A stretch of DNA of 64,000 nt, from contig CANJBZ010000011.1 of the NCBI GenBank assembly GCA_947473475.1, forward strand, positions 1 to 64,000, given 5' to 3'. Shown piece after piece: positions 45,801-47,905 of the stretch; position 1 is the stretch's first letter, and the number at the start of each line of letters is the position of its first letter. The translations under genes and the position numbers were made by a program. Origin of the DNA: Alphaproteobacteria bacterium. GTDB lineage: Bacteria > Pseudomonadota > Alphaproteobacteria > Micropepsales > Micropepsaceae. Under the pieces are notes generated by a model that had not been told where the DNA came from, did not search any database, and saw only the letters and a list, made by a program, of their open reading frames with translations.

Positions 45801-47138
45801 CTAGCGCCCGAGAGCGTATACGGCGGCGGCACGGCGCAGATCGCGCAAATAGCCTTTGGCAAATAGGGCCATCTGCTGCTGGAAAAGCTGCTGCTGCAAT
45901 TCGTTGCGGGTTGGCAGGACGGCCACGCCCGCACGTGGCGGGACGCCATCGCAGCGCATAATCAGCTCCACCCCCGCGGCCGACACGAATGGTTCGATGG
46001 CTTCACCGGGTCCGCTCTTTGCCAAGCCGTCACGCAGGTCGCCTGCGAGGTCCCTTGGGCTGACGGCGCCCAGCTTGGAATAAACCATCCCTTGAACCTG
46101 CCCGGACGCATTGGCCAGGTCCGCACAACTCCGCAGCTGGCGTTTGATGTTGCTCGCCAGCGCAATCGCGCGGGTTTTCAGGGCTTGATCGGCGTTGGCG
46201 GGGAGGGGGATCAGCAGCCTTTCGAGCGGCACGGGCGCGTTGGGATCGGGCGCCGGCGCGGCTGGGACTTCTGCCAACTGGGTGTTTGCAGGCTCGCGCC
46301 GGTCACGCAGAAAAATCAGGTAATAGCCGCCTTCGGCACGAACGGGGCCGGCGACCTGCCCAGGCTTCAGGTCGGTAAGCAGATGATCGAGTTCCTCTGG
46401 TAATTGCCCCTGGGTGACCCATCCCATGTCGCCGCCATCCGCGGCGCTGGGGGACTGGCTGAATTGTCCGGCCATGGTCTGAAAGGGCGCACCGGCCGCG
46501 ATCTGTTGCGCAAGCTGGTCCGCGCCGGCCCGGACGGTCGTTTCGTCCTCCGGGCGGTCCACGCCCATATAAATTTCCGAGACCAGGAATTGCGGCTTGT
46601 CGGCGCCCTGTTTCAGACGCGCCATCGCTTCGTCCAGCTGTTGCTCGGTCACCGATATGTCGGCTGCGAAACGCGCCGACACGAGCTTTTGCCAAACGAT
46701 CTGCGCTGTTACTTGCTGCCGGAAGGTGGCGGCGGTGACCCCAGCCTGCGCAAGACGCGCGAGCAGCTGGTCGACGGTGAATTTGTTGTCTTCCGCGATG
46801 CTTTGAACGGCGCGTTCGACTTCGGCGCGGGTGGCGCTGACTTTGCGCTTGTTGGCCTCCTGAAGTTCGACAACTTCGTCCTGAAGCGAACGCAGAACCT
46901 GCGCGCGAATTTGAGGCTGGTTCTCCTTGGTCACGGTGAGTCCCGACGTCGCGACGAATAAGGCCGTACGCTGATCGACATCGTAATTGGAGATGACGAA
47001 CTCATTGACGATGGCGGCCACGCCGGACGAGCTTTGCGGCGCCGGAGCCTCCACGTTTTGTCCCGACGCTTCCGACGCCATAAGTGATAGCGCCACCAAG
47101 CTTAAGGCTCGCAAAATCGCGCGTTGGGACAAGGGCAC
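45801..47138 (-). CDS. SurA-like periplasmic peptidyl-prolyl isomerase
   Basis: 445 residues from a GTG (47136-47138); a TTG six bases downstream fits the GGAGG site equally well. Signal peptide to about residue 26 (ASG-QN), SurA N-terminal chaperone region (IVNEFVISNYDVDQRTAL, then long helices), one parvulin domain (FLVSEIYMGVDRPED, QFSQSPSAADGGDMGWVTQGQLPEEL, AEGGYYLIFLRDRR) and a C-terminal chaperone segment. Helps outer-membrane proteins fold. An insertion element lies 69 bases upstream of its start, in the promoter area. Confidence 0.9.
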   Translation of the reverse strand: MPLSQRAILRALSLVALSLMASEASGQNVEAPAPQSSSGVAAIVNEFVISNYDVDQRTALFVATSGLTVTKENQPQIRAQVLRSLQDEVVELQEANKRKVSATRAEVERAVQSIAEDNKFTVDQLLARLAQAGVTAATFRQQVTAQIVWQKLVSARFAADISVTEQQLDEAMARLKQGADKPQFLVSEIYMGVDRPEDETTVRAGADQLAQQIAAGAPFQTMAGQFSQSPSAADGGDMGWVTQGQLPEELDHLLTDLKPGQVAGPVRAEGGYYLIFLRDRREPANTQLAEVPAAPAPDPNAPVPLERLLIPLPANADQALKTRAIALASNIKRQLRSCADLANASGQVQGMVYSKLGAVSPRDLAGDLRDGLAKSGPGEAIEPFVSAAGVELIMRCDGVPPRAGVAVLPTRNELQQQLFQQQMALFAKGYLRDLRRAAAVYALGR

Positions 47139-47210
47139 CGCCTCCGGAATTATGGCAAACAGAGCAGGAATTGCAGGCTTCGTCCACTGAGACGGATCGC
47201 GGGTGGTGTC

Positions 47211-47591
47211 TCAGTTTGAATTTAGCACAGCGGGGCCGCCCGCCGACTCTTCCGCGCGGCGTTGAGCAATCCAACTCCGCTCCCTTGCGGCTATCACTCC
47301 AGCATCGCAGTTTTCCAGGATGACGACGGCAACAGGCAGGCTCTCGTCGAAGGCCCGCCTAAGCGAGTGGTGAATAGTGCGATAGTCTTTCATCGCATTT
47401 CCATGCCACGGGAGGCCTATGAGCATCCGGCGCACGTTATTGGGATAAGCTCTGATCCGGCGGCGGAGTTTGAGGGCCTTTCCGACATACACGCCGATCC
47501 CGGTGAGCCGCCATTCGTAGATGCCGGGCGAATCGAGGCTAAGCTGATCGTCACAGATTACTGCATACCAGTCGCTTTTAGCTTGCTGCAT
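47211..47591 (-). CDS. GIY-YIG nuclease-like protein carried by the insertion element
   Basis: 126 residues. The GIY-YIG core reads GIYEWRLTGIGVYVGKALKLRRRIRAY-like, with conserved Arg after the YVG strand and an NNVRRMLIG segment; ENCDAGVIAARERSWIAQ supplies a possible metal-binding Glu near the end of the fold. The ATG (47589-47591) overlaps the transposase remnant, and the stop is within the terminal repeat, so the gene is an integral part of the element. Could be a homing-type or resolvase-like nuclease; activity unproven. Confidence 0.75.
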   Translation of the reverse strand: MQQAKSDWYAVICDDQLSLDSPGIYEWRLTGIGVYVGKALKLRRRIRAYPNNVRRMLIGLPWHGNAMKDYRTIHHSLRRAFDESLPVAVVILENCDAGVIAARERSWIAQRRAEESAGGPAVLNSN

Positions 47592-47720
47592 CGTTCATCC
47601 GCTTTTTGTAAGGTCGGCGCCTCGCTGATTTAACAGTCCGCGCTTCGATCCACTCCGCAATATCCTCTAGCGACCACAGCCGATCCGACACGCCAGCCGC
47701 CATGGCCGGGGACATGCCGA
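47578..47720 (-). pseudogene. C-terminal remnant of a DDE-type transposase
   Basis: About 47 residues containing MSPAMAAGVSDRLWSLEDI and a basic RRRPYKKR tail. This phrase (K-x-xPAMAAGVxDxLWxxxDIV ... GPYKK) is the usual C-terminus of a transposase group found in rhizobial-type insertion elements. The catalytic core is deleted; the upstream residues in this frame are not transposase-like. Confidence 0.65.
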
Positions 47721-47905
47721 GCGGCTTATGCGTCTTCGGACTTCTGTTCTGGACTAAGTTTTGCCGCACGCCCCGCGCCACCAGCTATTGGTGGCAGTCC
47801 GCCATGCCTGTCAACGGCGGCCAAATTCAAACTGAGACACTATCGGATCGCGAGGCCCCGCCGGCGATCGCGGTTGCGGCCCGCGAGGCTGACCGCCATT
47901 TTGCA

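Follow-up and report, generated by a model that had tools for sequence, protein, structure and literature searches.

A 643-bp element with IS1-like ends and a GIY-YIG nuclease-like gene in front of a SurA-like gene of an alphaproteobacterium

What is a GIY-YIG nuclease-like gene doing between two perfect inverted repeats in an alphaproteobacterial genome? The locus lies within a 64,000-nucleotide stretch of a Micropepsaceae genome (hereafter the window), and a sequence-only reading had described it as an element that lost its own transposase and kept a nuclease, possibly with a homing-like or self-maintaining role.

The perfect 17-bp inverted ends on which this description was based are both present: TGTCTCAGTTTGAATTT occurs twice in the window, each time exactly (47207-47223 on the plus strand, 47823-47839 on the minus strand). 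This is not a chance occurrence, as 0.08 matches are expected in the window even when up to three mismatches are allowed; among shuffled sequences, 8 of 2000 contained a 17-bp inverted pair, probably overlapping palindromes, which the count did not exclude. A whole-genome search returned one extra copy, with one mismatch (C51:633-649). Comparison with related ends located the true termini, and terminal identity runs 5 bp beyond the 17-bp repeats to give 22-bp inverted repeats (IRs; GGTGGTGTCTCAGTTTGAATTT and GATAGTGTCTCAGTTTGAATTT, identical at 20 of 22 positions). Because a perfect 8-bp direct repeat immediately adjoins these wider ends, the element extends from 47202 to 47844, and the earlier limits (47207-47839) are 5 bp short on each side while the repeats themselves stand. 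The direct repeat, GGATCGCG, had been overlooked in the first reading; an 8-bp duplication is the expected footprint of a DDE transposase. The features are as follows, with the element read on the minus strand from its transposase-side end to its cargo-side end:

47202..47844, minus strand: whole element (probable mobile insertion cassette), 643 bp, with IRs, 8-bp repeat and ends known from many phyla
47194..47201, no strand: target-site duplication copy 1, GGATCGCG, direct repeat at the element edge
47845..47852, no strand: target-site duplication copy 2, GGATCGCG, direct repeat at the element edge
47202..47223, plus strand: IR of the cargo side (right end, IRR), GGTGGTGTCTCAGTTTGAATTT, in agreement with the family consensus
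47823..47844, minus strand: IR of the transposase side (left end, IRL), GATAGTGTCTCAGTTTGAATTT, in agreement with the family consensus
47809..47814, minus strand: TTGACA, a -35-like box at element position 31, where family left ends have TTGAC
47593..47760, minus strand: IS1-like transposase remnant, C-terminal ~56 codons, from HMM and alignment (open ORF 47578-47781)
47211..47591, minus strand: GIY-YIG nuclease-like ORF, 126 aa, from UvrC N-domain matches (relatives P0001, L167 and L168)

An HMM of related transposases placed the remnant at model positions 237-292 of 294 (E 4.6e-18), confirming that the element contains a transposase C-terminus as previously suggested. With this tail, tblastn matched eight alphaproteobacterial plasmid records, three of them annotated as IS1 family transposase, and in several of these records the IR recurs at a variable distance downstream from the transposase; no plasmid DNA similar to the element itself was found. 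The full-length relatives resemble the IS1 and IS1595 families in part: their ends begin with GGT, they make an 8-bp duplication, and their transposases match Pfam DDE_Tnp_IS1 (32.3 bits in L012 and 24.4 in L030, above the cut-off of 24.1). Unlike in these families, the transposase is encoded by a single continuous ORF (about 295 codons, with an N-terminal HTH), and it scores below the NCBI cut-offs for both IS1 and IS1595 (NCBIfam transpos_IS1, E 9e-18, 64.9 and 71.5 bits against a cut-off of 100). IS1 itself has an InsA/InsB' frameshift organisation, which is absent from the relatives' transposases; given their single uninterrupted ORF, we refer to them as IS1-like and not as IS1 proper.

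The element belongs to a family that is found across phyla. An exact 18-mer search of one-genome-per-species contigs for the ends GGTRRTGTCTCAGTTTGAAWTT recovered at least 118 stretches from many phyla, a sample picked by end sequence and not a census; together with 26 viral-contig loci, these yielded 65 inverted pairs. Among the matches listed, the 8-bp duplication was perfect in 38 of the 65 pairs and had at most one mismatch in 47, and these 47 comprised 18 elements with a full transposase, 5 with a fragment and 24 with none. Full-length members among the matches listed measure about 1.3-3.9 kb, and the duplications differ in sequence between family copies. Within the same bacterial family, two elements (G069, 2879 bp; G033, 4171 bp) have perfect 8-bp duplications and intact transposases. 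The existence of transposase-bearing relatives with the same ends, together with the duplication, supports the initial view of an element that is without most of its transposase and has kept its nuclease gene.

Besides the window element, five short members combine a duplication, a transposase piece and other ORFs: L083, L173, L176 and L187 retain the transposase C-terminus, and L174 an N-terminal piece plus a short tail. Across the bacterial family, 46 transposase remnants are C-terminal versus 4 N-terminal. We considered this excess as a sign of cargo selection and rejected it: with the transposase adjoining the right end, C-terminal remnants are expected to prevail if neither end can be lost in a deletion. 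The left ends of L030, L041, L054, L093 and others hold a recurrent ~80-aa gene (M-P-K-G-P...K-R-P-x-D-V-I-G...A-A-x-x-R-W), the start of which has been fused to the transposase tail by deletion in L173 and L176. Among the papers searched, none contains the end sequence or mentions ISMhu11, and the two that name ISNwi1 are genome reports, unrelated judging by their titles.

The left end of the window element also carries the TTGACA box. Among the matches listed, TTGAC stands at position 31 in 8 of 159 ends away from the transposase (at any other position, in at most 2) and in none of the 53 transposase-side ends. A promoter scan of the element detected no full consensus promoter, and no consensus -10 follows the TTGACA.

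The distance from transposase to IR varies. Among the matches listed, the transposase ends within ~45 bases of the outer IR edge, usually inside the IR, at 22 of 53 transposase-side ends, and 106-1633 bp separate transposase and IR at the other 31. At 10 of these 31 ends, an ORF of at least 56 codons with a start codon stops at the IR's TGA (...N-S-N-stop); the same test in the two other frames gave 1 and 2. Identified cargo between transposase and right IR includes MazE/MazF-type proteins (L041) and a type II/III-like DNA methyltransferase (L035). A SocA/Panacea protein (L054), a HEC-06 candidate (L121) and a HEC-04 candidate (L112) are encoded on the other side of the transposase, towards the left end; of the cassettes devoid of transposase, L116 holds a glyoxalase-fold protein and L124 a RibD_C protein. 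Loci L017-L134 and L169-L194 (e.g., L030, L041, L112, L121) represent a cross-phylum family of IS1-like transposons in which the ends GGTRRTGTCTCAGTTTGAAWTT and 8-bp duplications go together with cargo of toxin-antitoxin or defence type.

Cargo start and transposase stop overlap in the window element (-14), L173 (-11), L007, L058, L083 and L187 (-4 each), L035 (-1) and, less certainly, L127 (-20); in many other cargo-bearing members, the cargo starts further downstream. This overlap is a recurrent arrangement, not a rule. In several members the transposase tail reads AAGAAGCGGGAGG..., a ribosome-binding-site-like stretch directly before the cargo start, and the window element and L173 have the junction sequence GATGCAG in common. 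The position of the junction points to translational coupling, the evidence for which is purely positional.

The GIY-YIG ORF of the window element fits this pattern, and its boundaries were correctly read from the start: its first 14 bases, from the ATG on, overlap the transposase stop, and its TGA stop falls within the IR, as IRR encodes N124-S125-N126 and the stop. The protein carries GIY (23-25), YVG (35-37), E104 and N124, and its probable assignment to the GIY-YIG group relies on matches to the UvrC N-domain (PDB 1yd5, E 4e-4, the best match among solved structures; NCBIfam UvrC, E 7e-4), the Pfam GIY-YIG match being below its curated cut-off (E 0.011, 16.4 bits against 22.6). Single-sequence fold prediction was poor (pLDDT 43). 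The C-terminus is Leu-Asn-Ser-Asn, with N124 within the IR, and two of three relatives finish Leu-Asn-Gly; the IR may thereby provide a structural or catalytic Asn of the predicted nuclease.

Could this ORF be a functionless, decaying hitch-hiker in a plain short deletion derivative similar to a MITE? Many family elements of 78-500 bp among the matches listed have no clear gene, the Pfam score is under cut-off, an ORF of similar length exists on the opposite strand, and the third-position GC of the ORF is lower than in four neighbouring genes (0.65 vs. 0.73-0.77). The last feature fits a recent import, and leaves function unproven. Against such decay, the frame is intact over 126 codons, with GIY, YVG, Y49, the late Glu and the final Asn common to its homologues, and it begins at the transposase stop, as does the cargo of other members. 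We consequently regard a mere hitch-hiker as improbable.

Still less probable is an element driven by its nuclease, in which the GIY-YIG protein would cut the target or the ends and be integral to movement. GIY-YIG domains are known in homing endonucleases, a PADLOC homing endonuclease model matches weakly (E 0.007), and the gene is the sole intact ORF left in the element. However, the IS1-like transposase accounts for ends and duplication, and the gene is missing from relatives that match the element in ends and duplication length. The expectation that full-length relatives would share it failed, as the at least 18 transposase-bearing elements and the intact elements of the same bacterial family carry other genes. 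Nor did an HMM of the GIY-YIG group find a second copy in any other element retrieved, where homing would have the nuclease in all mobile copies and a fixed target; the 8-bp duplications, too, vary from copy to copy. The homing-like or self-maintaining role is therefore unsupported, and unlikely because family membership does not depend on the nuclease. Moreover, as a single compact domain of 126 aa, the protein has no space for a separate DNA-recognition module; with family ends and duplication explained without it, the nuclease is most simply cargo.

Relatives of the protein lie elsewhere. A Burkholderia plasmid protein is 35% identical over 83 residues, and a two-sequence profile retrieved two GIY-YIG relatives from a phylum sample. 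Searches returned none in one-genome-per-species contigs, in 60 related genomes (E <= 0.001) or in viral contigs; within the order there was one weak match, in the class sample UvrC only, and in phages short, weak matches. None of the relatives' loci L167, L168 and L015 has element ends of the window type, which also argues against a nuclease-driven element. At L168, the distant relative (1477-1818, opposite strand) sits between ribosomal-protein/EF-Tu-like genes.

In the genome, the element is inserted between a cupin-like gene and the SurA-like gene, 63 bp upstream of the latter, so that the position first assigned to it holds. A DNA search of this genome (99% complete, 66 contigs) found no further full copy, i.e., the element is single-copy, and an HMM search for an intact transposase of the IS1-like group found two remnants only. 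The second remnant (C9:56375-56560, L136) is a decayed tail with three stops, followed, as judged by eye, by an apparent open frame of ~79 codons and degraded IR-like sequence. The genome has two SurA-like genes (window 45801-47138 and C19:26089-27303) that are 64% identical, and homologues in the bacterial family, own genome excluded, reach at most 58% identity; the window copy may lie outside the usual lptD-surA-pdxA setting. Solo IRs do exist, such as the lone copy on C51 (L003), which adjoins a 59-aa ORF, but a chance bracketing of a resident GIY-YIG gene by two independent IRs, with no single transposition event, is hardly credible, being contradicted by the perfect 8-bp duplication that spans the whole unit and by a transposase remnant fused in family order (left end, tail, cargo, right end).

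We therefore favour, with a probability of roughly 0.86, a non-autonomous, internally deleted mobile insertion cassette (MIC) derived from a passenger-carrying IS1-like transposon. In the parent, the left end would have comprised IR and -35 box, and an IS1-like transposase gene would have lain close to the right end, separated from the right IR by a passenger gene. Loss of the segment between about position 80, counted from the left end, and transposase codon ~236 would have spared both ends, the final ~56 transposase codons and the passenger gene, which encodes a small protein with a predicted GIY-YIG domain of UvrC type and stops at the IR's TGA. The resulting copy presumably reached its site between the cupin-like and SurA-like genes through DDE transposition, generating the GGATCGCG duplication, with transposase supplied in trans. 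Such a source is plausible because intact elements with perfect 8-bp duplications occur in the same bacterial family. The passenger, if expressed, is probably translated by coupling from the ATG inside the last transposase codons. Two observations weigh against a deleted MIC: a full-length parent with the same GIY-YIG gene is absent from the elements retrieved, and the element's own genome has neither a second copy nor an intact transposase of the group. As for function, we can only guess, by analogy with the defence and toxin-antitoxin cargo of relatives, that the predicted nuclease perhaps acts against foreign DNA, a role that is doubtful.

It is tempting to speculate further that the IS1-like family constitutes a gene-capture and expression slot, a broad reading that we hold to be rather unlikely. 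The transposase 3' end would offer a Shine-Dalgarno-like stretch and, at its stop, a start codon; the right IR would supply the stop codon (...N-S-N-stop), so that any captured gene becomes translated cargo. Internal deletions would then produce small cassettes that lack a transposase and carry genes for toxin-antitoxin systems, defence and nucleases from phylum to phylum. If the slot is real, it is a route by which single genes of these kinds could mobilise without integrons, large transposons or prophages, and it would help the annotation of such cassettes, usually labelled hypothetical ORFs. In any case, one family offers autonomous, cargo-bearing and stripped copies for side-by-side comparison.

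MICs and passenger-carrying IS are both known kinds of element, and what is noteworthy here is the shared cargo-slot layout. Like a MIC (term as in PMC3129680; e.g., MIC231 of Bacillus cereus, Chen et al. 1999, as cited in PMC6542083), the window element has paired IS-family IRs around a passenger, a duplication of family size and no functional transposase, and should be mobile if a cognate transposase is provided in trans; it differs in having IS1-like ends, a GIY-YIG passenger and a retained transposase tail that overlaps the passenger start. Its long relatives resemble transporter IS (tIS; PMC3129680, PMC7986276) in that unrelated genes sit between the IS ends, in many cases past the transposase. 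At least 18 elements have a full transposase, with MazEF, SocA, methyltransferase, HEC-06 and HEC-04 among the cargo. Their IS1-like transposase and end sequence are their own, however, and the window copy has lost the transposase. Finally, the passenger shares with the UvrC N-terminal GIY-YIG domain the GIY...YVG core and the next Arg/Tyr as in 1yd5, in an alignment that covers the first half of the protein only; it is, however, a stand-alone protein of 126 aa and not the UvrC repair enzyme, and its last conserved Asn comes from the IR.
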